Shown: positions 1 to 28,833 of the stretch, piece by piece
How the letters are laid out: every line of letters starts with the position of its first letter
Position numbering within the stretch: position 1 is the first letter of the stretch
Virus record (IMG/VR): IMGVR_UViG_3300035688_000002
Coordinates: 36,803-100,802 of that record
Origin: a virus
DNA length: 64,000 nt
Strand: one strand, 5' to 3'
The notes under the pieces: model-generated
Database searches by the model: none
The model's input: the letters and a program-made list of their open reading frames with translations, nothing else
What the model was told of the DNA's origin: nothing
Translations under genes and position numbers: made by a program

Positions 1-575
1 ACTCTCTGTTTGAGCAGATAGAGCTTCGTAAATCGAAAAACATTGTCAACTTTCTCTACTTCTGCCACAAACTGGATTTCATTCGGGGCTGAGAGCCTTG
101 AGTAATAGAGTAGCTCTTCGAATATCCTTCGCCCTATGAAAACCTTCCACTTTATTTCTGGGGGAGCTGGTTTTCTAGTCTTATCCTCTGCCTTAGCGGC
201 TAACTCTCCACCTCTGACGACTTCATGCTTCATACAGGCCGGTGTGTCAGGACTGATAAACTTGCCTGTTGACTTATGAAACATGGGAGATAAGGGATTG
301 ATGCATTTTACACAATTCTCTGTAGCACTCAAACAGCCATAGCAAGTCAGTCGTCCCTCCCTCTCCTCTACAGAGACTTGAGTCTGAGACGCTCTTTTGG
401 CGATTACCGAGCCTTTTCTCGCTTCGCAAGCAGGATTCCCTTCCATTCTCATAAATCTGTAATTCTTGCTTAGTCTGTAGTTACAGATGCTGAAATTGTG
501 TCCTCCCCTGAGCTCTTTGACGAGATCATGACAGTCCCCGCAAACCCAAATCTTCTCGGTTTCTTGCTTTTTCAT
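1..575 (-). CDS. Cys-rich protein with JAB/MPN-like domain start (partial)
   Basis: Runs off the left edge; 191 residues are visible from an ATG preceded by AAGGAGGGAAA. The start overlaps the E1 stop as ATGA. The N-terminal half has zinc-ribbon-like pairs (C12/C15, C78/C81, C88/C91). From about residue 143 the sequence KVFIGRRIFEELLYYSR, then PNEIQF and a predicted strand ending YLLKQ, matches how JAB/JAMM domains begin: strand, helix, then the conserved Glu (E166) that assists the zinc-bound water. The HxH...D zinc motif would lie outside the window, so peptidase activity cannot be confirmed. Position next to E1, E2 and Ub-like genes supports a deconjugating or processing isopeptidase. The domain call is inferred from pattern and context. 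Confidence 0.6.
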   Translation of the reverse strand, partial: MKKQETEKIWVCGDCHDLVKELRGGHNFSICNYRLSKNYRFMRMEGNPACEARKGSVIAKRASQTQVSVEEREGRLTCYGCLSATENCVKCINPLSPMFHKSTGKFISPDTPACMKHEVVRGGELAAKAEDKTRKPAPPEIKWKVFIGRRIFEELLYYSRLSAPNEIQFVAEVEKVDNVFRFTKLYLLKQR

Positions 576-1297
576 TTTCCCTCCTTACCCTTACCGACCC
601 TCAATTTCATTATCGATAAATCTGCCATAGAAACAGCAAGGTCATATACAAATTTCCCATCTTTGAGAAAGCCTCTCACTTGGCGTGCAATGACTGCGGC
701 TATGGCAAAACCCACATCGATTATAGCTCTCCCAGTACATGGAAGCTTGGCGCTGTCCTTGTCTTCAAAGAGATTTGTTTCATACCACTGATGCTGAAAG
801 ATGTCTTGAATGGGACGGATTGTCAAGATTCTGAACTCTTGGCCTCCCATACGGCCATCAATGAGCAATTCAATCTTCGGATTTGGTTTCACTGCTTCCC
901 AAACCTGCTGTCTAACTTTCATTGTGTCAACGGCTGTTATCACTATTCCACTCAGTGGATCTGTTGGCTCCCACATTTTCTCTTTCGGCTTTATTGTGAT
1001 GCCTGTAAGTTGCCGAGCAAGAGACGCTAAGGCTTTCACTTTCGATATTCCCACTGCCTTTACAAGATGGAGTTGATTCGGCACATTGTGAACTTCCACA
1101 TTGTCTCCGTCCCAGACAGTTATCTTTGAAAGCCCCAGTTTTGCGAGAGCCACTGTCGTAAAGGAGCCTATTCCACCAGCTCCAATAACATGGACTTCGC
1201 ACCGATCATGTTGGTCTGGGTCAAAAAAGTCCAACTGCCTCAAATAAGTGCTTTCCTTGCCTTCATTGTTTTTTGTCTCTTCTCTTGTTTCACTCAT
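572..1297 (-). CDS. E1-like / ThiF-family adenylyltransferase
   Basis: 241 residues. The Rossmann nucleotide-binding loop GAGGIGS is at residues 39-45, followed by a ThiF/MoeB/E1-type acidic DGD at 63-65 and a conserved Asn/Gln segment near 71-75. A candidate catalytic cysteine is C187 in LPCTGRAIIDVGF. No CxxC zinc pairs of the MoeB/ThiF type are seen, which resembles the compact E1-like proteins of prokaryotic ubiquitin-like cassettes. Family members adenylate the C-terminus of a beta-grasp protein and transfer it to a thiol. The start overlaps the preceding coiled-coil gene as ATGA and the stop overlaps the JAB-like gene as ATGA, so all are translated as one operon. Substrate is presumed to be the Ub-like protein at 2963-3292. 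Confidence 0.88.
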   Translation of the reverse strand: MSETREETKNNEGKESTYLRQLDFFDPDQHDRCEVHVIGAGGIGSFTTVALAKLGLSKITVWDGDNVEVHNVPNQLHLVKAVGISKVKALASLARQLTGITIKPKEKMWEPTDPLSGIVITAVDTMKVRQQVWEAVKPNPKIELLIDGRMGGQEFRILTIRPIQDIFQHQWYETNLFEDKDSAKLPCTGRAIIDVGFAIAAVIARQVRGFLKDGKFVYDLAVSMADLSIMKLRVGKGKEGK

Positions 1298-1509
1298 TTC
1301 TCTCCCTTTAACATCCGATTTATAATTTCTAAGCGACTCGCACCAAATTTTTCATACATCTCAAACTGAGCTATTATGTTTCTTAGTTCCTCTATCTGCT
1401 TGAGTATGCGCTCTCTATCTCTTTCAAATGCAACCTTTAGAGTTTTTAGAGTGGGTAGGTCAAACGAGCGATAAACTTCCTCCAGCCCCTTGTCTTTCTG
1501 ATTAGCCAT
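1294..1509 (-). CDS. Small coiled-coil protein of the Ub-like operon
   Basis: 71 residues, highly charged, mostly helical, with a likely coiled coil at about 20-50 (FERDRERILKQIEELRNI). No recognised domain. It lies between the E2-like and E1-like genes and overlaps both (8 nt with E2, ATGA with E1), so it is almost certainly co-expressed with them. It could be an adaptor, a scaffold or a substrate-recognition subunit; the sequence does not discriminate. Confidence 0.75.
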   Translation of the reverse strand: MANQKDKGLEEVYRSFDLPTLKTLKVAFERDRERILKQIEELRNIIAQFEMYEKFGASRLEIINRMLKGEK

Positions 1510-2947
1510 TGTTTCTCTCCCTCGGAGCCCTCTCGCCCTTAGGGTGGACGTAAGTTGTCATGCTCCGATGCACATTGCGAAACAGGGACTCTATCTCAGT
1601 GAATTTATCATGAGGATTGTATGAACAAATAAAATTCCAGATAAGATGGGCTAAAAGCGCCCAATTCCATTCGACAAAGAGCTTCTCAATTCCAGGTCTA
1701 AGAGTCCCCCAACAAATAGTCTGTCCATCTCTGCCACTCACATGGGGATGCTGTCTCTCTGAGCCTAGCCCAAAATCAAGATTGATGATTTTAACTTGCC
1801 CTCTCTCCACTCCTATATTGAGCCAAACCCTGTATTTCCCTAGGTTCCAGAGCTTTCTGTCATAATCTACAACTGCGTCAACAGTGTCATAAACGAGCCA
1901 AGAATCAGTCATCGTCAGTGCTGTGATGAAGGGAAATCCTCGGATTGTGTCTATTTGTTCCTGGAGTTGCTGACCCAGTTTGTTACGTCTTTCAGCAACA
2001 GAAACATCGAGCAGCTTGGATGTCGCTACGAGCTTCGCTTCAACCTCTATGAGGGAGTTTATGTATTCATCAAGACGATCAGCTATGGTTTCCTTGGGCG
2101 GAGCAAAAAATGCATTTATTTTCTCTTCAAAGACTGTATTAAACTGTGCTGGGTCTCCACCAAATAATCTTGCATAGACACGAAAGAGACGAAACCTCGA
2201 TTTCCTGCTCTGATCAGTTTCAAACTCTGCTTTTAACTCAGGAAGCCTTTTTAAGAGCAATTTCTCTACCTGATACACTCCGGCTGCCTTTCTTATCGCC
2301 TCCGTCAAGTCTCTATGACGGACGCTCAATTCATTGAGTGTATTTTGAACCTGTAAGTTTATCTGGCCCGTTCTTGTCATAAGTAGCGTGAGCATTTTAT
2401 CCGTAATTTCATCTCGAATCTGTATCTGTTGCAACTTCTGTCTGACTTCTGCCTCAGTCTTTTTAGCTGCCACCGTCCCTCTTGAGCCCATCCTTTTCAT
2501 TGTCTCCGTCTCAATCATTATCTCTCCCTGGTCACTGATTCCTATGTCACCTCCAGCAGAGGCAGACGGACGGCGGGACACCCTGCCTCTGATTCTGTTT
2601 AAAGCAACTCTCATTTCACTTCGAGTTCTCGCATTGTGTGCCTCATCAGGGACTGCAACTCTGTCTCTCCAAGGGGCAGGCACGGAATCAATCAAGGGAG
2701 GCCCTGGAACCTGCTCATCTGGCAATTCAGGGGATACTTCTTCGCCTCTCCTACGCACAATCCCGCTGACACCTGCTATCCTGGCCTGGTTTAAGAATCT
2801 CTCTTCGTCTTCGCGAGCAACAAAAATTGCATCTGCCTCTTGGGCTGGTGCGACAAGGAGGTTCCCATAGTGCATGATGCTCCTTAGGAACTGATCGCGG
2901 GTGCCTTCGATTATCTCGTAGATGACCCAACCAGGGCGTGCAGACAT
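1502..2947 (-). CDS. Large protein with C-terminal E2/UBC-like domain
   Basis: 481 residues. The N-terminal ~150 residues are unassigned and partly low complexity; 165-330 is helical, probably coiled coil. The C-terminal ~120 residues carry HPHVSGRDGQTICWG (400-414), which parallels the E2 active-site signature HPN-[IV]-x(n)-G-x-[IV]-C-L. C412 is the candidate thioester cysteine and H400-P401 the structural pair. Preceding strands (YRVWLNIGV, VKIINLDFGL) and following helices fit a UBC fold. Bacterial E2-like proteins of Ub-like operons show this pattern. The length is far above a minimal E2 (~150 residues), so the helical N-terminus may bind target or partner. The fold is inferred from motif and neighbourhood. 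Confidence 0.68.
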   Translation of the reverse strand: MSARPGWVIYEIIEGTRDQFLRSIMHYGNLLVAPAQEADAIFVAREDEERFLNQARIAGVSGIVRRRGEEVSPELPDEQVPGPPLIDSVPAPWRDRVAVPDEAHNARTRSEMRVALNRIRGRVSRRPSASAGGDIGISDQGEIMIETETMKRMGSRGTVAAKKTEAEVRQKLQQIQIRDEITDKMLTLLMTRTGQINLQVQNTLNELSVRHRDLTEAIRKAAGVYQVEKLLLKRLPELKAEFETDQSRKSRFRLFRVYARLFGGDPAQFNTVFEEKINAFFAPPKETIADRLDEYINSLIEVEAKLVATSKLLDVSVAERRNKLGQQLQEQIDTIRGFPFITALTMTDSWLVYDTVDAVVDYDRKLWNLGKYRVWLNIGVERGQVKIINLDFGLGSERQHPHVSGRDGQTICWGTLRPGIEKLFVEWNWALLAHLIWNFICSYNPHDKFTEIESLFRNVHRSMTTYVHPKGERAPRERNNG

Positions 2948-2962
2948 TCTCTACCTCTCACC

Positions 2963-3292
2963 TTAGATACCGGCCGAGAAACGCTTGATGGCCACAACAG
3001 CATCACCGTTGCGGACACGAGTAGCAAGATCGGCTGGCATAGAATTAACGAAATACTGATTCGTAGGGTCTCCTGAGACAGCGCCCCGCTCAATCAATTG
3101 AGCAAGGGACTGTGTCTCTTCTGGACCCAGTTGAATCCAAGAAGGCGGACGCCCAAACTCCATGATTCTGACTCTGTCACCAGGAACCTGCCTGGCTTCC
3201 TCTTCTGTTTCGACCTCAGCGGGCGGACGGTCTCTGAATCTTTCAATTGCGCCACCCTCTCTCCGTCTCTCTCTTTCTTCTCTTTCATTCAT
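2963..3292 (-). CDS. Ubiquitin/ThiS-like beta-grasp protein
   Basis: 109 residues: a charged, probably disordered N-terminus (~40 residues, Arg/Glu-rich) and a ~65-residue C-terminal domain. That domain aligns without large gaps to the 74-residue protein at 28403-28627: both have AQLIERG, a Y-x-x-N strand, then VR-x-GD-x-VV. The spacing of the VN turn and the GD-V-V strand is typical of ThiS/MoaD/ubiquitin-like folds. The C-terminus is FSAGI, with no di-Gly; if a JAB peptidase trims it, AG would be exposed (speculation). First gene of the operon, with promoter element 3319-3341 directly upstream and AGGAG before the ATG. Confidence 0.7.
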   Translation of the reverse strand: MNEREERERRREGGAIERFRDRPPAEVETEEEARQVPGDRVRIMEFGRPPSWIQLGPEETQSLAQLIERGAVSGDPTNQYFVNSMPADLATRVRNGDAVVAIKRFSAGI

Positions 3293-3343: not shown

Positions 3344-3673
3344 CTAATTGGTTCTCCCCTTCCCTGAGTCCAGATTCTTCCAGGCTCTTGCATCTTTCGC
3401 CAGCATCGCCAGGAGTGAACCGGAATCGGTCTCGAAGTGTCTCTCTCCTATTTTCTTTACTGTCTCTGTTATGAGCGCTTCAAAATTTACGAAAGACACA
3501 GAGAGGAAAATTTCTATCCCTGTCACCATTGCCTCAACGATATTCAAAATTTCCATCTCATTCGTAGGGAGAGGCTCAAAATCCAACTTAGATTTGAGAT
3601 TTGTCATAACCCGACGGTATAAGGCAAGCACATAGATGCCCCTCTCCAACGGGGTAAGGTCTTTTAACTCCAT
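3344..3673 (-). CDS. Hypothetical protein
   Basis: About 109 residues from the ATG at 3673, chosen because GGAG lies at proper distance and the upstream gene stops at 3678; in-frame ATGs up to 3703 would overlap that gene. Mostly helical (LTPLERGIYVLALYRRVMTN), no recognised motif. Last gene before promoter P1, transcribed with 3678-4256. Confidence 0.7.
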   Translation of the reverse strand: MELKDLTPLERGIYVLALYRRVMTNLKSKLDFEPLPTNEMEILNIVEAMVTGIEIFLSVSFVNFEALITETVKKIGERHFETDSGSLLAMLAKDARAWKNLDSGKGRTN

Positions 3674-3677
3674 CAAG

Positions 3678-4256
3678 CTATTCTCCATCATCGACCCAGA
3701 CATAGGGCTCAGTTCTATAAGCGTTCCAGATTTTTACGGCTTCTGATATCTCCATCTCTCGTCTCACTATAGTCGAAAAAGCCTTGAAATTCTCTGTAAG
3801 GAAGGCTGCCTGCAATGCGAGAAGTTTGGGATTTCTAATTAGACACCTGAGTGCCATCTCTCCTCCAAACAAAAAGGTCGACTTCCCCCATTTTACTACG
3901 TTGTATAGCACAACTGGGCACCGTTCACAGCCTCCACCAAAAGTGTGGGTCAAATTACACCATGGATTCAAAGAGGGAATCACAAAAAGCTCCTTTATCT
4001 GCCAGAGATGTGTGCGTGCAGCCCTGAGTGTGGCAATCCGATATGCACAGGCCCAGCGAATAAGATCGAGCCACACTGTCTTGGTTATCTCAAAATCTCG
4101 ATCACAGGGCTTTAAAAACTGTTTCATAAGCATTTCTCTATAAGCCCTAATGAACGATGCCAAGGCAGGCTTGGAATCTACATCCGTGCAGAAAGCGTCG
4201 CTACTAACGAGAACATCGCTCATAGAAAGCTTCAGCTCTTTCTCTCTTTGTTCCAT
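3678..4256 (-). CDS. Hypothetical Cys-containing protein
   Basis: 192 residues. A cluster CNLTHTFGGGCERCP (about 118-132) could bind a metal; the rest is predicted helical with many aromatics. No family recognised. It is the first gene after promoter element P2 (4280-4302), with an ATG about 24 nt downstream of GATAAT. Confidence 0.72.
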   Translation of the reverse strand: MEQREKELKLSMSDVLVSSDAFCTDVDSKPALASFIRAYREMLMKQFLKPCDRDFEITKTVWLDLIRWACAYRIATLRAARTHLWQIKELFVIPSLNPWCNLTHTFGGGCERCPVVLYNVVKWGKSTFLFGGEMALRCLIRNPKLLALQAAFLTENFKAFSTIVRREMEISEAVKIWNAYRTEPYVWVDDGE

Positions 4257-13096: not shown

Positions 13097-13288
13097 TCAT
13101 TGTTCCTTTATTTCCCTTATGCTTGGACAACCGCGACTCCTCATAGCATGACTAAGACACGAAGCCGACAATCCAAATCTCCTACAGATGTCAGATAGGG
13201 AAAGACTGGGGTCAGCGCGTAAAAGTGCCTCCGATTTCCTTGCAATTTCATCCAACTCCTCAGGCTGCCGTTGATGAATCTTAGGCAT
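13097..13288 (-). CDS. Small helix-turn-helix protein
   Basis: 63 residues. SLSDICRRFGLSASCLSHAMRS is a good HTH pattern (helix, turn at GLS, recognition helix). Overlaps the polymerase 3' end by 8 nt. Could be a DNA-binding regulator of the replication genes or a resolvase-like HTH fragment; target unknown. Confidence 0.72.
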   Translation of the reverse strand: MPKIHQRQPEELDEIARKSEALLRADPSLSLSDICRRFGLSASCLSHAMRSRGCPSIREIKEQ

Positions 13289-15644
13289 CTGGAACCTCTA
13301 TCATCTCTCCCCAGTTCCGCCCCGCCATTGTTTCAATCTCCATAGGAACTAACATCCAGGGGAAAACCTCTGGCAATCCTTTCACTATCTCTCTCATTAG
13401 AGAAATGACGGTCATCTCTTCATTATAATTGGGAGCGTCAACGAGATTCTCATCATGCACTTCCGCAATGATTTTTGACTCAAGCTCCATCATTTTCATT
13501 AACTCTGCCAATTCTCCCAGCGTGAAAATGTTTATATCGACGGCCGCGGACTGGATGGGAAAATTGAAGGCTCTCTTAGCCCTGTCTTCGCCTGTGTAGC
13601 CACTCAAATCCCACCTTCTGCCAAAGAGAGAGACTATCTCCATCCCCCTTTCTGCCCTGCCTCTCTGTCTATCCATCCATCGCCTAACGCCCCCGAATCT
13701 TTGAAAAAAACGCTCATAGAAAGCGAGAGCTTTTCTGATTGACCATCCTTCCCTGTCAGCGAGAGCCCCAGCCGACATTCCGTAGAACAAACCAAAATTC
13801 ACAGTCTTTGCACTCCGCCTGTCTTCAAATGTCACGTCCTTCAGGTCTTTCATATAGATTGTAACTGCTGTTTCTCTGTGTGGGTCTCTGCCCTCTTTGA
13901 AGATTCTTAATAGCTCTGGGTCTTCAGACTCAATTGCCATCACCCTCATCTCTATATGTCTGAAGTCCATTTTGACTAGGCGACCGGCAGCGCCAAAGCG
14001 GCTAATAAAACACTTCTTCACTTCAGGCGGAACATTCTGGATGTTTGGCCTCCCAGCAGCCGGTCTCCCTCCCTTCGACGCTGTGATATTGTAGCTGGGA
14101 TGAATCTTTCCGTTAGCGTCTGACATTTCAATGTAATTGTCATAGTAAGTACCTTTGATTTTCATAAGACTTCTATAGTCCATGATTTGCTTGGCATACG
14201 GATCACTATGCGAAAGCTCCTCAAAGGTATCTTTATCAATAGACGGAAGCCCTTTCGGAGTGAAATGCCGTGGATCATAACGCAGTCCCTCAAAGAAAAG
14301 CTTTCTGAGGCTGAATGGAGAATCAATCTTAAATCCTGGGATTTTCTGAACCTCGGGGAGGGTAAGGATTTCACTCTTTTTCTGGGCTATGTCAAGCTCC
14401 AGCTCTCGGCTTCTTAGTCTCACGAGAGGAAGATCAAGAGCCATGCCGTTAGCCTCTATTTCAGCCAGAGCTACAGAGCCTGGCATTAGAACCTCATCAT
14501 ATAATGTTCCCAGGCCTTTCCTGTCTATCCTGGGTCTAAGGATTTCATAAAGCTTGGCACTGACAAAAGCGTCGGTAGCATTGAGTTGCCACACATTTGG
14601 CTTACTGACATTGCCCATATTCTCATAGTCTATCCCTTTTTCATATCCACCATAGTCTGGAAGATACTGCCAGACCATCTGTTTGAGGCCTACGGACGTT
14701 CCTGTTCCCTCATCAAGGAGATACTTAGCCACCGATGGGTCAAACACAACTCGATTCAACCTAACACCGTGTTTGACTAAGAGCCACACAAATTCAAATT
14801 TGGCATTTTGGGCTATTTTTGGAGTGTTTCCCTCAAGAAACTCCCGCATCTCTAATGAAACAGTCCCTAAACCCCAAATACTTTCCCAGTCAATGACACA
14901 CGTGTCTTCAGCGTCAGAGATAGCGATGCTCAAAATCCTGGCGTCAGGCTCGAAAGGTGTCTTTGTTGTTGTCTCAAGATCAATGGCTATGGGCCTTGCT
15001 TCTCCCCTCCCCTTAAAGGTTGTAAGCCAGAATGGAACTCGATAAGGACTTTCAACCAGATCGAATCTCACTCTTTTTATGACTCTCTCTCCTTTCCCTA
15101 TCAGACTTGGAATAACTGCCATGTCTTTCCGCCAGGTATAAATACTCGAGCGATTCCGAGCTACATACGCTGGGTGCCAGAGTGGGAGATAGGTAATTTC
15201 ATCTTTTTCAATCACCCGCCCTCTTACAACTGAAGACGCCTTCCCTACAAACTGACGAATCGGAAGGACTCCGAAGAGAAGAACGACTTTGGATTTCATT
15301 TCTGCCCACTCCTGGGCATACTGTTTAACACAGTGTTTCCGGGTAATCGCATCCGGCTCAAGGTCACCCCCTTCGTCCTTTGGGCCAGTCCTACATTTAG
15401 CAAGATTTGTGATGTAACAATCTCCCCTCGTAACTCCTAAAGGAGTCAGATTCTCAAAGAGAATCTTGCCGCTTGGGCCAATGAATGGCCGTCCCATCCT
15501 TTCTTCCGTTGCCCCTGGTGCTACTCCTACAATGACAATCTTAGCATTGGCTAGATCTCCTTCGGGTGCGACACGGACGTGCCCCATTAAAGGGCAACCT
15601 ACACACCCTCCGAGGACGGGCTCACTGACTAATCTGTTTGTCAT
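13281..15644 (-). CDS. Family A DNA polymerase with N-terminal family-4 uracil-DNA glycosylase domain
   Basis: 787 residues. Residues 1-185 are UDG-like: C14/C17, C84 and C105 can hold a 4Fe-4S cluster, motif A GVAPGATE (40-47, Glu of the usual GEAPG is Val), GRPFIGPSG, and WHPAYVAR (156-163). About 215-370 is a 3'-5' exonuclease with DLE (222-224), NAKFEF (Glu where Asp is usual) and D358. The polymerase has motif A KMDFRHIEMR (D560), motif B RRSAKTVNFGLFYG (K613, F617, Y621) and motif C VHDE (H730, D731). Replicative polymerase, with uracil removal or sensing coupled to synthesis. SPO1-type phages carry comparable fusions. Confidence 0.93.
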   Translation of the reverse strand: MTNRLVSEPVLGGCVGCPLMGHVRVAPEGDLANAKIVIVGVAPGATEERMGRPFIGPSGKILFENLTPLGVTRGDCYITNLAKCRTGPKDEGGDLEPDAITRKHCVKQYAQEWAEMKSKVVLLFGVLPIRQFVGKASSVVRGRVIEKDEITYLPLWHPAYVARNRSSIYTWRKDMAVIPSLIGKGERVIKRVRFDLVESPYRVPFWLTTFKGRGEARPIAIDLETTTKTPFEPDARILSIAISDAEDTCVIDWESIWGLGTVSLEMREFLEGNTPKIAQNAKFEFVWLLVKHGVRLNRVVFDPSVAKYLLDEGTGTSVGLKQMVWQYLPDYGGYEKGIDYENMGNVSKPNVWQLNATDAFVSAKLYEILRPRIDRKGLGTLYDEVLMPGSVALAEIEANGMALDLPLVRLRSRELELDIAQKKSEILTLPEVQKIPGFKIDSPFSLRKLFFEGLRYDPRHFTPKGLPSIDKDTFEELSHSDPYAKQIMDYRSLMKIKGTYYDNYIEMSDANGKIHPSYNITASKGGRPAAGRPNIQNVPPEVKKCFISRFGAAGRLVKMDFRHIEMRVMAIESEDPELLRIFKEGRDPHRETAVTIYMKDLKDVTFEDRRSAKTVNFGLFYGMSAGALADREGWSIRKALAFYERFFQRFGGVRRWMDRQRGRAERGMEIVSLFGRRWDLSGYTGEDRAKRAFNFPIQSAAVDINIFTLGELAELMKMMELESKIIAEVHDENLVDAPNYNEEMTVISLMREIVKGLPEVFPWMLVPMEIETMAGRNWGEMIEVPDA

Positions 15645-20303: not shown

Positions 20304-23180
20304 TTATCTCCCTCTCGTCTTTATCTGAGTAGGGATAACATCGAAGCCTTCTTTCCGATACAGGCTGAGTCTATAGACGCTGTGTGCCTCCAAATAACGA
20401 TCACCTCTATCCTCAAAGTCATAGATGCGGACGACATTCTCTCCGCTGGGTTTCTTTCTCATCCCTCTTCCAATTCTCTGTAGGAGTTTCATGTGGCTTT
20501 TGCCTGCTCCCGCAAGAATGAGAACCTTTATTGCTGGCAAATCCATTCCCTCATCAAATATTGGGGTAGCCACGATAGCTGGAATTTCATTCCGTTCCAG
20601 CATAGCCAGTTTCTGGTTTCTCTCTTGTGCTTCTGTCAGTCCCGAAACCAGAATCGTTCCGTTGGTCATTCGAGAAAGAAGCTCCCGGGCGTGCCTAAAA
20701 GTCTGAATGAGTATCAGAACCGGCTCCTTTCTCAGCTTATGCAGTCTGGCAATCCCTGCTATGATGTTGTTTCGGTCATTATTTAACTCTATGCCTGCAA
20801 TATATGCAGCCTGCCAGTTTCTGGCCCTCATAAATTTTAGAGAGAAATTCTTAATTCGATATATCTTTGGTGCGGCTGAGAAGCCTCTCATTATCATTTC
20901 TCGGTTGGTAATAGTCTTAATTTCCTCTCCAGTCATTGATATCAGTCTGAGATTCTGGATTTCCTCTCTCATCAGAGGAGTGGCAGAGAGGCCAAAGCGA
21001 TAGAAGGCGTTGATGTTCTTGGACACTTTGAACCACGTAGCGGCCGACTGATGATGACAATTAGAGACAACGAATCCATTAGCGAAGAAAAGATGGTCAT
21101 TGCTATCAATCTCAATATCATAAAGCTCTGTCTCATCACAAAACTGAATATTGGTTATCTTAATCTCTTTATAGAGAGACCGTACTGAAACCTTATCGTG
21201 GGAAGACAACCACGACAGCTTCCGAGGCACCAAGAGTTTTTTGGCCTCTCTAATCTTTACAATCTTTAACCCTCTATTCTCAATAATTGGAACATAATGA
21301 TCATCAGAGGCTATCAAATAATTCCCTGAATTAAGCCAATATTTGAATGCTGGTTTTACAGTCTTCCAAACCCTCTTTACATTAGCTACACCCTTCGGAG
21401 TCAAAACTACGTCTCCAACCCTCAACTCCTTTAACAACTTAATCCCTTCTGGAACGGCGATTTCGGTATCTCCATCAAGACATTCGTCAATCAGAAGCAT
21501 ATCAACCTCATTCCAGAGCCAGTCTTTAAACATTGCCTTTATTTCTTTATTCTTGCTTGTGACTCGATTAAAGAGGGTCTGAACCATGCCTACAGTCACC
21601 CTCTTAATGTCCATGGCATTTCGATGAACCACTCCTATATCTTCATTCAATCTAGCTGCTAGCCTATCTCTTGTCTGATAGAGGAGGTTGCCTCTGTGTG
21701 TGAGCCACAGCACTTTTACTGGGGCTATTTTCATTAAGCCAGCGCCTATTTCTGTATTGTGTGTCGGGATAAAGTGATTTGTAAGATACATATGCTCTGG
21801 ATGATGTGACGAAATACACCGGCACTCTTTTCTTCCCACATACTCTATCTCCGTAATGACACGGCTCTGATGTTTCTCTCCCACTAATACACGTACCCAC
21901 TTCCTCGGAAGAGAAAAAGCTCTATGGGCTAGCTTGCCGCCAAAAGTCACTACATAGCTTCTCTTTCCTTCTTTAAGCTTTCCAAGATATTTGAATTTTG
22001 GTATCTTGCTACGGATACGGCAAACAGCACCCAAACTCTCTGCCACCTCTTTTACATCCATAGCCAATTGCAAGGAAGTCGAGCAAAACTCGACCCCGCT
22101 TCGCCTGGAAGGAGAGTAGCCATCTGTATCCATTAACCCATTAAGCAACTCCATACGAACAGATCCGGAGTTATACTTATAGACATCTGGAATAAATTTC
22201 TCCCACGACTTTCTATTGCACAGCCCATACTTTCTCAAAGCATCAAGAATGACATTCCCTCCACCCCGTCTCTGTTTGGAAAGGACATAATCTACAATCC
22301 TTCCTGACTGCTTCAATTGATATCCTCCCGGCAGCAACCGACGAGCTTTGGAAACAATAGCTTTATCTCCACAAGATAGCCTTATTCCATTCTTATCCAG
22401 GCTACCATCCCCGAGAAGAACACCCAACAGATATGGATGGATGACTACAGGGGCAAAAACAAATTCAACAGGTTTCGCAGGATAAATTTGATACTTGGGC
22501 CTCCCAGATTTTTGAAGATGGCTTCCCATTATAGAATTCAATGCAACCACCTTCTCCCTAATTGTCCAATTTATTCTGCTTCCTATCTTCCACAGATGCT
22601 CTAAGGAACACTCCACGGAATCACCGTTCCTAAAAGTGACTCTATAAATATCCAACAATCCCTGCGGATAGACTCCCGTAACAGTTGTCGAGTCTCCCAT
22701 CGGAGTCAAAATCTCATCCCCAACTTTAATTTTCCCCATTTGCACCGGGCCTTTAGTAGTATAAACAAGAGCATCTAAAGGCTGAGATTTTCCTGCGTTA
22801 GTCGGAGCAGTCAAGATACAGCGTTCCATTGCAAAAGCTCTTTGAATCGCGTCTATTTGATAATCTCTGAGTTGGATTCCCTCTAATTTTAACTCTTGAG
22901 TCACAAACTCAGGCTTCCTTCGAGCGTCGTTCATAACGAAACGGTCTTTGAGCTTATCTGGGAAAATGTCAAAGAGACCGGTAGGGAACGTCTGAGAGAA
23001 ATCATTATAAAAACAGTAAGTCCCATCCCAGATTCTCTTTCTAAACGATGTCATAAACCAAAAGTTAGGCACGGCAAAAGTCAAAAACTTCCTGATGGCG
23101 TCTTCCTCTGAGGGAACGTCAAAAGATTCAATCTTAATGAAAATATTACCCTTACTTGCCTTTATCAATTCTTTCCTCAA
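20304..23180 (-). CDS. UvsW-like SF2 helicase interrupted by two inteins
   Basis: 958 residues before splicing, ~474 after. The helicase core is split at motif I (TAPTNAGKS|TEIGAG) and at motif II (LLIDE|CHHQ, a DECH box). Motif III FGLSATP and motif VI QRIGRGMR are intact. T4 UvsW-type enzymes regress forks and resolve R-loops and branched DNA; the location between primase and recombination genes fits. The start is a TTG: 23180 as listed, or 23168, which has a better AGGAAAG site. The gene overlaps the primase end by ~28 nt. Splicing is required for activity since both ATPase motifs are interrupted. Confidence 0.92.
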   Translation of the reverse strand: MRKELIKASKGNIFIKIESFDVPSEEDAIRKFLTFAVPNFWFMTSFRKRIWDGTYCFYNDFSQTFPTGLFDIFPDKLKDRFVMNDARRKPEFVTQELKLEGIQLRDYQIDAIQRAFAMERCILTAPTNAGKSQPLDALVYTTKGPVQMGKIKVGDEILTPMGDSTTVTGVYPQGLLDIYRVTFRNGDSVECSLEHLWKIGSRINWTIREKVVALNSIMGSHLQKSGRPKYQIYPAKPVEFVFAPVVIHPYLLGVLLGDGSLDKNGIRLSCGDKAIVSKARRLLPGGYQLKQSGRIVDYVLSKQRRGGGNVILDALRKYGLCNRKSWEKFIPDVYKYNSGSVRMELLNGLMDTDGYSPSRRSGVEFCSTSLQLAMDVKEVAESLGAVCRIRSKIPKFKYLGKLKEGKRSYVVTFGGKLAHRAFSLPRKWVRVLVGEKHQSRVITEIEYVGRKECRCISSHHPEHMYLTNHFIPTHNTEIGAGLMKIAPVKVLWLTHRGNLLYQTRDRLAARLNEDIGVVHRNAMDIKRVTVGMVQTLFNRVTSKNKEIKAMFKDWLWNEVDMLLIDECLDGDTEIAVPEGIKLLKELRVGDVVLTPKGVANVKRVWKTVKPAFKYWLNSGNYLIASDDHYVPIIENRGLKIVKIREAKKLLVPRKLSWLSSHDKVSVRSLYKEIKITNIQFCDETELYDIEIDSNDHLFFANGFVVSNCHHQSAATWFKVSKNINAFYRFGLSATPLMREEIQNLRLISMTGEEIKTITNREMIMRGFSAAPKIYRIKNFSLKFMRARNWQAAYIAGIELNNDRNNIIAGIARLHKLRKEPVLILIQTFRHARELLSRMTNGTILVSGLTEAQERNQKLAMLERNEIPAIVATPIFDEGMDLPAIKVLILAGAGKSHMKLLQRIGRGMRKKPSGENVVRIYDFEDRGDRYLEAHSVYRLSLYRKEGFDVIPTQIKTRGR
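21060..21482 (-). other. Mini-intein in helicase motif II
   Basis: 141 residues (567-707 of the precursor). Starts CLDGDTEIAVPEG, block B with DDHYV (H628), block F TELYDIEIDSNDHLFF, and ends VVSN with extein Cys708 as +1. No LAGLIDADG block, so a class 1 mini-intein without endonuclease. The penultimate His is replaced by Ser, which occurs in some active inteins. Confidence 0.9.
21756..22784 (-). other. Intein with LAGLIDADG endonuclease in helicase Walker A, class 3-like
   Basis: 343 residues (133-475). It begins with Gln (QPLDALVYTTKGP), not Cys/Ser/Ala, and ends IPTHN with Thr476 as +1. The class 3 WCT set is present: Trp197 two residues after the block B His (EHLWKIG), Cys455 in block F (RCIS) and Thr473 before the final HN. 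LLGVLLGDGS and LLNGLMDTDGYS are the two dodecapeptide motifs of a homing endonuclease. The insertion exactly follows GKS of the P-loop. Confidence 0.9.
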
Positions 23181-26416: not shown

Positions 26417-27106
26417 CTATTTTGTCAGTGAGAAAATGACAAAGGCAATACCGGCCCCGCCTCCCACTTTCAAGATTGTGTCAAAGAATCCTGGTTTCTT
26501 AATCTTTTCTACTGTCTTTCTGTATTCCCTAAAAGAGTCTTCAAGAGACACATATTTTATATCCTTTTCTTTCAGCTCGCCACGAAGCTCAGCGATGGCA
26601 ACTTTGTGTCCAGAGGCAGCTAATTCAAAGTCTGTTATCAGTTTCTGATACCTAGGCTCCTTCACTAGCGTAAAATTCTCTGCAATAGACAGTTTTATTG
26701 CGTCAATCCTGAACGCTGCAAGAGAGAAAGTAGCTTCCTTCCTCTCTGCTGAATACCAGACTTCCTGGGTCTCAAGGAGTCTCCTGGTAGCAGTCACAAG
26801 CTCCTCCGGTGCTGCACTCTCTAATCTATCTTTCAGGGAGGCTATCACTTTTTCATTCTTAGCCAGCTTTTCCTTTGTCTCTTTGCTCTCCTTCAGGGCT
26901 TCATCGGCCTTTTTCTCAGCAGTAGCGGCTCTGACATCCCGTTCTTGGATAGATTTCTCGATCGTAGCTGCTACCCTATCAGAGGCTTCTACGATCCCTT
27001 TCATTTGACCCTTGAGGGCTGTGTTTGCTCCCCACTGATAGCCAATAACAATGAGAGCTATAATGATTATCAATCCAATAACCACAAAGAACTTCGTCTT
27101 ATTCAT
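26417..27106 (-). CDS. Coiled-coil protein with terminal membrane segments
   Basis: 229 residues: N-terminal transmembrane helix (about 6-24), a long charged coiled coil (30-95, 160-205), and a hydrophobic C-terminal segment (GAGIAFVIFSL). The shape recalls spanins (Rz-like or unimolecular u-spanin) or phage-encoded membrane tethers. No lipobox. ATGA overlap with the VWA gene, so both may act together. Confidence 0.68.
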   Translation of the reverse strand: MNKTKFFVVIGLIIIIALIVIGYQWGANTALKGQMKGIVEASDRVAATIEKSIQERDVRAATAEKKADEALKESKETKEKLAKNEKVIASLKDRLESAAPEELVTATRRLLETQEVWYSAERKEATFSLAAFRIDAIKLSIAENFTLVKEPRYQKLITDFELAASGHKVAIAELRGELKEKDIKYVSLEDSFREYRKTVEKIKKPGFFDTILKVGGGAGIAFVIFSLTK

Positions 27107-27819
27107 TTTTTGTCTTCACCCTTGTCGGGCTCCCATCCCTCACCGGTAGTGGATTCAACTTTCTGAGGTTCTGAGTCTTTACTCTCAAACTTGAAATCCC
27201 CTGTTTGACGATAGAGCCTGGATGCGGATTGAAGAGCACTGTAAGCCTCCTGAGTTTGATGCCGATCGTGAGTAAAATGGGATGTGTGAGAGGGATCGAC
27301 AATGCCGAGAGTAAAGCCCTGCCCCCAAGCGTCTTCGCTCGCTCCGAGGAACACAAATGTCCAATTCTGGGCCCTTCTCTTGGAGATGAGTTCGGCGACT
27401 TGCTCTCTGGTAAATTCTTTCGATGCGTTTTCGTGTCCGTCAGTCATAACAACAAAGAGCATCTGATACTTTGTCTTGGTGTCTTTTAGTCGCCTGTCCA
27501 GCTCGATTATGACCCTGCCAACTGTGTCATAAAGGGGCGTCATGGCATAGGGAACATAGTCTTCCATTCTCAGGGATTGCGTGTCTTCAATCCGGGCTCC
27601 TTCATAGAGAGGCGAGAATCTCTCTGAATTCCACTTTATCAGTGTCAGCAAGACTGCGTCTCCCTCGTCTTTCTTTAGGGAGCTTAAATACTCATTGACT
27701 CCGTCCACAGTTGCTCCCTTGATTGACTCCATTGAGCCCGTCTCATCGAGAAGGAAAGTAACGAGGGTCACTTTCCTCTCCTTGCCTAGCTCTTCGATTA
27801 GCTCTGCAATGTTTTTCAT
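27103..27819 (-). CDS. von Willebrand factor A domain protein
   Basis: 238 residues. MIDAS metal site: DETGS (25-29), Thr94 in YAMTPLYDT and Asp127 in VMTDGHENAS. Around these, TLVTFLLD, DAVLLTLIKW and MLFVVMTDG are the alternating strands of a VWA/integrin I fold. Bacterial VWA proteins often assemble complexes with AAA+ or tellurium-resistance-type partners; none is adjacent. C-terminal acidic tail. Transcribed with the coiled-coil membrane protein. Confidence 0.88.
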   Translation of the reverse strand: MKNIAELIEELGKERKVTLVTFLLDETGSMESIKGATVDGVNEYLSSLKKDEGDAVLLTLIKWNSERFSPLYEGARIEDTQSLRMEDYVPYAMTPLYDTVGRVIIELDRRLKDTKTKYQMLFVVMTDGHENASKEFTREQVAELISKRRAQNWTFVFLGASEDAWGQGFTLGIVDPSHTSHFTHDRHQTQEAYSALQSASRLYRQTGDFKFESKDSEPQKVESTTGEGWEPDKGEDKK

Positions 27820-28191: not shown

Positions 28192-28392
28192 TTAGACAGC
28201 TCCCTTTAAGTGTAGATTATCTCTAAGCAGCTGTTTTAAATCAACAGACCCATCTCGCGAGCGATTGTGTGCTTCACACATATGATAGGTACCACAAAAC
28301 ATCCCCTGTTTTCTCTTGAAAAAGAATCCCTGCCAGATTTTAGCTTTCGCTGTCGCCTTATTCTTACAATCTTGAACCACACATTTTTTCAT
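28192..28392 (-). CDS. Small zinc-finger-like protein
   Basis: 66 residues from ATG 28392 (GGAGTGAGG site). CVVQDCKNKATAKAKIW, MFCGTYHMCEAHN pattern: two C-x4-C/C-x2-H half-sites as in small phage zinc fingers. No assigned role. Confidence 0.65.
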   Translation of the reverse strand: MKKCVVQDCKNKATAKAKIWQGFFFKRKQGMFCGTYHMCEAHNRSRDGSVDLKQLLRDNLHLKGAV

Positions 28393-28402
28393 TGCCTCAC
28401 TC

Positions 28403-28627
28403 CTAATCACTCATTATCGGAGGGAGAGATATCACAATATCTCCCTCTCGCACGATTGAATCCAGTTTCGCTTCTATACCATTGATAATATAACTTCCTT
28501 TGGGACGTTCTTTTAGATCTCCCCGTTCTATGAGCTGCGCCACAGTCATCCCTTCCTCATTTGACTTTAGCTCAATATCTCTGAGTGGCTCTCCTAAATT
28601 AGCAGCTCTTATCTTTCTGACACTCAT
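28403..28627 (-). CDS. Second ubiquitin/ThiS-like beta-grasp protein
   Basis: 74 residues from ATG 28627 (GGAGG site, ATGA overlap with the upstream gene). Homologous along its length to the C-terminal domain of 2963-3292: shared G-x-P, MTVAQLIERG versus SLAQLIERG, IINGIEAKLDSIVREGDIV versus FVNSMPADLATRVRNGDAV. The Ng turn and GD-V strand are hallmarks of MoaD/ThiS-like folds. The C-terminus is PPIMSD with no Gly-Gly, so conjugation is uncertain. No E1 or E2 gene is adjacent here. Confidence 0.68.
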   Translation of the reverse strand: MSVRKIRAANLGEPLRDIELKSNEEGMTVAQLIERGDLKERPKGSYIINGIEAKLDSIVREGDIVISLPPIMSD

Positions 28628-28833
28628 TCTGCCTCCTCTGACTCTTTGGGAAAACATTTAGGACATAGCCCTGAGATTGTCCATTCTTTAAAATTTATTC
28701 CACCTAACTCTGTAGTACTCTTTTTGCAACAGATACAGACTTTCTTTTTAATTGCCTCTTCTCTCGTCATTCCAAACAGAGCGACTGCCATAGCGTTTAT
28801 GATTTTCTTAGTATTAATGTTTCCTACCATCAA
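28624..28833 (-). CDS. Small zinc-ribbon protein
   Basis: 69 residues. CICCKKSTTELGG and LCPKCF form a four-Cys zinc ribbon; the N-terminus TREEAIKKK is helical. Translationally coupled to the Ub/ThiS-like protein downstream, so a functional link is possible. Confidence 0.7.
   Translation of the reverse strand: MMVGNINTKKIINAMAVALFGMTREEAIKKKVCICCKKSTTELGGINFKEWTISGLCPKCFPKESEEAE

Follow-up and report, generated by a model that had tools for sequence, protein, structure and literature searches.

Beta-grasp proteins of the ThiS/MoaD/TtuB/SAMP family of sulfur carriers and small modifiers (Pfam ThiS, PF02597) share their fold with the one predicted for a 74-aa phage protein, here named Ubl2 (28403-28627, minus strand), which has a longer relative in the same phage, named Ubl1 (2963-3292, minus strand). 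Residues 22-71 of Ubl2 align to positions 17-73 of the 76 positions in the ThiS model, with a score that lies below the curated gathering cut-off (14.5 versus 22.5 bits). Moreover, ThiS and MoaD have a C-terminal Gly-Gly for the thiocarboxylate, whereas Ubl2 has Ser73-Asp74 there.

Type 6d operons of bacteria, which combine Ubl, E2, E1 and JAB genes, as well as phage tail-assembly Ubls, were described by Iyer et al. in 2006 (PMC1779556); the C-terminal Gly of the type 6d Ubl is highly conserved, and the sections of that paper covered here make no mention of a second, Gly-less Ubl. The Ubl1 operon has the same components, namely a small Ubl with Gly near its end, an E2-like protein with a conserved Cys, a ThiF-like E1 and a JAB/JAMM protein, and there is a ParB-like gene near the Ubl1 cassette as well. 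Against models of the PRTRC cassette, which we take to be the same as type 6d, the cassette E1 scores only 40.7 bits (PRTRC_ThiF, cut-off 144.75) and the ParB-like protein 22.7 bits (PRTRC_parB, cut-off 278.6), and no PRTRC model matches Ubl1, Ubl2 or the E2-like protein, nor does the Prok-E2 model match the last of these. BilABCD likewise combines a Ubl, E1, E2 and JAMM protein, but BilA has two Ubl domains whereas Ubl1 has one, and the cassette is carried by a phage. PADLOC gives no match to the cassette Ubl, E2 or JAMM protein, and Pfam, NCBIfam, PHROGs and PADLOC supply no name for either Ubl or for the E2. In eukaryotes, Hub1/UBL5 has the ubiquitin fold without a usable terminal Gly-Gly and acts non-covalently; its likeness to Ubl2 concerns only the mode of action that we propose below, and we claim no homology beyond the fold. 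A literature search, outside which most subscription journals and preprints fell, found no published description of these phage cassettes or of their role.

The window analyzed here is a stretch of 64,000 nucleotides, bases 36803-100802 of a 100.8-kb virus record, which belongs to a tailed phage because it encodes T4-like portal, gp32-like, DNA polymerase A, RecA-like and DnaB-like proteins. Among the matches listed, its terminase is only ~33% identical to those of the nearest phages. Computational analysis identified the Ubl2 gene, its homology to Ubl1, its predicted fold, its lack of the terminal Gly, and the conjugation cassette. Elsewhere in the window we observed a helicase with LAGLIDADG/Hint intein signatures (20304-23180), a family A DNA polymerase that carries a uracil-DNA glycosylase domain at its N-terminus as a fusion (13281-15644), and a vWA-like protein (27103-27819) with homologues in 216 phage records, those of Streptomyces, Microbacterium and Pseudomonas phages being the most frequent.

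The Ubl1 conjugation cassette

Ubl1 is encoded in one operon with E2-like, E1 and JAMM proteins, in the order Ubl1, 481-aa E2-like protein, 71-aa protein, ThiF/E1 and 426-aa JAMM protein. The features of this region are as follows.

1-575, minus strand: N-terminal part of the 426-aa JAMM (JAB) metalloprotease; the rest, including the motif HSHVQMGVFWSGID, lies to the left of the window (L005:17097-18377)
572-1297, minus strand: ThiF/E1-like adenylyltransferase, Pfam ThiF match 1e-14
1294-1509, minus strand: 71-aa protein between E2 and E1, probably coiled-coil as judged by eye
1502-2947, minus strand: E2-like protein; C-terminal domain with the invariant H400-P-x-V...G...C412-x-G (here HPHV...CWG)
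2963-3292, minus strand: Ubl1, the cassette modifier; charged N-terminal extension of ~38 aa and a beta-grasp domain, ending in FSAG followed by I
3344-3703, minus strand: 119-aa neighbor; contigs L009 and G049 each have a 102-aa ORF in this position
3678-4256, minus strand: 192-aa neighbor; in L009 and G049 this position is taken by ORFs of 202 and 204 aa
4293-4943, minus strand: ParB-like protein, encoded upstream of the cassette; L009 has a 213-aa ORF that looks similar in the corresponding position

Residues D63, D65, N71, Q75, K86, D124, R129 and C187 of the E1 are invariant across four diverse phage homologues, and the H-P-x-V...G...C-x-G motif of the E2-like protein is invariant in nine phage proteins. 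The JAMM motif, HSHx7SxxD, is intact, although the protein scores only weakly against Pfam Prok-JAB (E 0.04). A ThiF partner for these Ubls had been presumed in the first-pass annotation of this DNA, and Ubl1 does sit in an E1/E2 operon, the JAMM gene of which is mostly outside the window. We also observed that four phage E1s have another residue in place of the Arg in the N-x-x-R-Q motif usual for E1/MoeB (NVPNQ, NLPNQ, NTGGQ and NMSGQ; window 572-1297).

The Ubl2 gene and its homology to Ubl1

Ubl2 lies 25 kb from the cassette, with small Cys-rich proteins as its neighbors in place of E2, E1 and JAMM genes.

28192-28392, minus strand: 66-aa Cys/His-rich small protein directly downstream of Ubl2, with its ATG at 28392; a longer reading is possible from a GTG at 28410
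28403-28627, minus strand: Ubl2, a lone beta-grasp Ubl of 74 aa with the C-terminus GDIVISLPPIMSD, which lacks a terminal Gly
28624-28833, minus strand: 69-aa Cys-rich (CxCC...CPxC) small protein directly upstream of Ubl2, whose ATG overlaps the stop codon of this ORF

An ORF of 74 codons plus a stop occupies exactly 28403-28627, its ATG being preceded by AGAGGAGG with a strong Shine-Dalgarno sequence (AGAGGAGGCAGAATG) and overlapping the stop of the 69-aa ORF (ATGA), so that Ubl2 has the look of a real gene with translational coupling. The in-frame start at 28657, which would give a longer protein, is without the Shine-Dalgarno and coupling signals.

Ubl2 is a true homologue of Ubl1, as had been proposed from the shared motifs AQLIERG and N...VRxGDxV, both of which we find, together with the different termini AGI and MSD. 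BLASTP aligns it to the C-terminal domain of Ubl1 with 45.4 bits and E = 7e-13 (24 of 64 residues identical, 38%). The Smith-Waterman score of 103 is far from the 25.7 +/- 4.6 given by 5000 shuffles (maximum 50; z = 17), which disposes of the concern, raised with the original proposal, that the alignment might score no better than shuffled sequence. No other ORF in the window scores above 48, and the 100.8-kb virus record contains no copies beyond these two. Profiles of the phage cassette Ubls give the same picture, Ubl2 scoring 32.0 bits when it is left out of the profile (at most 11.0 in 10,000 shuffles) and 18.7 bits when Ubl1 is left out too (at most 11.3 in shuffles). The aligned codons are 45% identical as DNA, and the same codon is used for only 6 of the 24 identical residues. 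Silent sites thus look saturated, and the likeness is an old one kept at the protein level.

Predicted fold of Ubl2

When 17 Ubls were included in the alignment, AlphaFold2 modeled Ubl2 with a pLDDT of 84.5 and a strand-strand-helix topology followed by three strands, the C-terminal tail being the least confident part (pLDDT 66). This run replaced one with a two-row alignment, in which Ubl1 was the sole partner, that had reached a pLDDT of 58 and was uninformative in Foldseek. The best solved match in Foldseek is MoaD (6jbz_B, E 2.7e-4, TM 0.70), followed in order by TtuB (5gha), MoaD, ThiS (3cwi), and then SAMP1, ubiquitin and NEDD8, with a probability of 1.00 for the matches to MoaD, ThiS, SAMP and ubiquitin. 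On the evidence of this model Ubl2 has the beta-grasp fold, which is the outcome that the first-pass annotation had anticipated from an independent prediction. Among the many viral proteins of ubiquitin-like kind that a BFVD search gave is a 289-aa protein of Flavobacterium phage Fpv3; in the related phage FpV4 a 289-aa gene lies just upstream of JAMM/ThiF genes.

Ubl2 lacks the C-terminal glycine

All 29 distinct cassette Ubls that we tabulated have Gly at or just before the C-terminus, ending in GG, GN, GE, GA or AG, after which come at most a few further residues or, in L018, a longer tail. The close group ends in VAG (L009), AAG followed by S (G049) and SAG followed by I (Ubl1). Ubl2 ends in IMSD, with S73-D74 where its relatives have Gly, and contains no Gly after Gly62, even though its length, counted from the conserved Gly-Asp, is exactly that of the L009 Ubl. 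A frameshift or sequencing error that hides a Gly-Gly was considered and rejected, as the other frames supply no Gly. The one-residue overhangs past the Gly in Ubl1 and G049 fit the predicted trimming by the JAMM protease.

Cap2 of CBASS is an E1-E2 fusion that conjugates non-Ubl proteins through their own C-terminus. Canonical E1s adenylate a C-terminal Gly (PMC12355090), and Ubl2 should therefore not be a substrate; this argument is strong, but not absolute, since Cap2 acts on non-Ubl substrates (PMC12355090). Trimming of the BilA precursor to its C-terminal Gly by BilC has also been reported (PMC11354881). Judged by its sequence, Ubl2 is probably a conjugation-dead paralogue, out of reach of activation by ordinary E1 chemistry.

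Relatives of the cassette and the origin of Ubl2

A profile-guided scan for the E1 yielded 80 IMG/VR loci, most with the JAMM motif and many with an E2 motif of the cassette kind, and related cassettes are present in dozens of phages. The close syntenic relatives are two contigs, L009/L010 (E1 51-52% identical) and G049 (read as L128/L130), the latter with the order SbcD-SbcC, 204 aa, 102 aa, Ubl, E2, ThiF, JAMM and JAMM-like. Of 50 records that carry related E1 genes, 28 have a recognizable Ubl. We found no further, dispersed Ubl in ~50 other cassette-bearing records, an absence that is suggestive only, because most of these are fragments; the exceptions to a single Ubl are a triple tandem in one ORF of G017 and an extra match, probably by chance (E 0.02), in a Xanthomonas phage record. 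Nor was an orthologue of Ubl2 found in these mostly fragmentary records or in the 58 kb of G049, which has a ~45% homologue of the 69-aa Cys-rich gene with no Ubl beside it, the cassette Ubl being the only one. Single-sequence IMG/VR scans with Ubl2, Ubl1, E2 and ThiF gave no true relative, and two- and three-row alignment scans of viral and genome contigs gave no relatives. The one Ubl2 match from the IMG/VR scan, in L003, was rejected because a 2451-aa ORF runs there on the opposite strand.

In a common alignment Ubl2 is 41% identical to the G049 cassette Ubl, 34% to Ubl1 and 32% to the L009 Ubl, and E34-R35 of Ubl2 are identical in Ubl1 and L009. The tree groups these four proteins with support of 93/91, a little under the level at which the program itself regards a branch as firm. 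Within the group, the pairing of Ubl1 with Ubl2 has support of 66/0, and a clade of Ubl1, L009 and G049 is not rejected (p-AU 0.49). The sequences hence neither support nor exclude a recent duplication of Ubl1 in this phage as the source of Ubl2. The tip branch of Ubl2 is the longest of the close group (1.74 versus 0.69-1.06), as is expected if the constraints of conjugation have been lifted.

Proposed role of Ubl2

Our tentative preference is that Ubl2 is a folded, Gly-less paralogue of Ubl1 that binds non-covalently and tunes or competes with the cassette pathway. Both this regulation and the Ubl1 cycle on which it would act are what we infer from the features above. In this cycle the JAMM protease would trim Ile109 from Ubl1, ThiF/E1 would adenylate Gly108, the modifier would move to Cys412 of the E2-like protein and from there to targets, and the JAMM protein would take it off again. 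Since Ubl2 keeps the fold and much of the sequence of its subfamily and ends in Ser-Asp, it most likely acts without being attached, through non-covalent binding, and it could do so at the proteins that recognize Ubl1 (E1, E2, JAMM or a Ubl1 receptor), thereby tuning the Ubl1 pathway or competing with it. Being made from a separate operon, Ubl2 is possibly expressed at another time. The first-pass annotation had mentioned a decoy or regulator of the other protein; the suggestion fits the anatomy of Ubl2 and belongs to the class of explanation we favor, the action on Ubl1's enzymes remaining its conjectural part.

The location of Ubl2, 25 kb from the cassette and among small Cys-rich proteins, argues against such a regulator. 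It is what one might expect of an exapted beta-grasp protein, now unrelated to the cassette, that has become a small non-covalent adaptor for its own operon, working for instance with the Cys-rich proteins on either side, much as YukD and Hub1/UBL5 are Ub-fold proteins that are not conjugated. Translational coupling to the Cys-rich small protein, the loss of the Gly and the long tip branch are all consistent with exaptation. Nevertheless, E34-R35, which are probably exposed, are kept with the modifier subfamily, and an unrelated use would not obviously keep them; family searches, moreover, assigned no function to the neighbors of Ubl2. We regard exaptation as credible yet doubtful. As partners of Ubl2 we thus favor Ubl1's enzymes, with the proteins of its own operon a close second.

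Bacterial Ubl conjugation by BilABCD and CBASS is an anti-phage weapon (PMC11354881, PMC12355090), and a Gly-less Ubl would be a natural competitive inhibitor of it. Ubl2, which sits among small accessory genes, might accordingly be a counter-defense decoy that blocks a host Ubl system of the Bil, 6E or CBASS Cap2/Cap3 type in place of the phage cassette, but its nearest relatives found are phage cassette Ubls, there is no PADLOC family match, and this explanation is improbable. We consider still less probable the idea, implied by the earlier suggestion of distinct targets, that Ubl2 is a second covalent modifier whose Asp terminus is accepted by a phage or host E1. In fold and length it matches a mature modifier, but the Gly is present in all 29 tabulated cassette Ubls and absent from Ubl2 after residue 62 in any frame, and we noticed no further E1 or E2 gene in the neighborhood of Ubl2. 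Least probable of all is a decaying relic, a surplus modifier gene whose end is already gone and which is in the course of being lost, as might be read from the failure to find an orthologue in the mostly fragmentary records of related phages, because the ORF is intact, ends exactly at the normal domain length, has a good Shine-Dalgarno sequence and a coupled start, and keeps its core positions despite saturated silent sites.

It is possible, and we advance the idea with reserve, that Ubl2 is a dedicated, conjugation-dead mimic of a modifier, which regulates either the phage pathway or a host Ubl defense by non-covalent competition. If so, a bacterial virus would possess, in a separate operon, a natural inhibitor made from a modifier without Gly, and a layer of regulation would be predicted for its Ubl system. 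Because one phage encodes both a conjugatable modifier and a Gly-less relative, the dead form is expected to bind what the conjugatable one binds and could serve as bait for these partners.

Variant cassettes in other phages

The gathered phage cassettes, from many IMG/VR records, allow the family to be studied directly. In G017 (L014:1878-2510) the cassette Ubl consists of three tandem Ubl domains, each ending in KGN, and resembles a 'poly-ubiquitin' precursor. Xanthomonas phage PhiXhv-12 (L008:2754-6630) encodes a Ubl ending in SGG, then an 892-aa E2-like protein and ThiF, and the genes of this cassette are annotated as hypothetical proteins and 'thiamine biosynthesis protein'. The phage of L024 (G007) may reassign TGA, a weak Ubl match (E 7e-4) running through four TGA codons. 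Two E2-like ORFs of 679 and 373 aa adjoin upstream of the JAMM gene in L037 (2029-5198), and two adjacent JAMM-like genes follow ThiF in G049 (L130:6633-8466), one with HSHGRMGAFWSGTD and the other with the shortened variant HTHGDGEVFWSDID.
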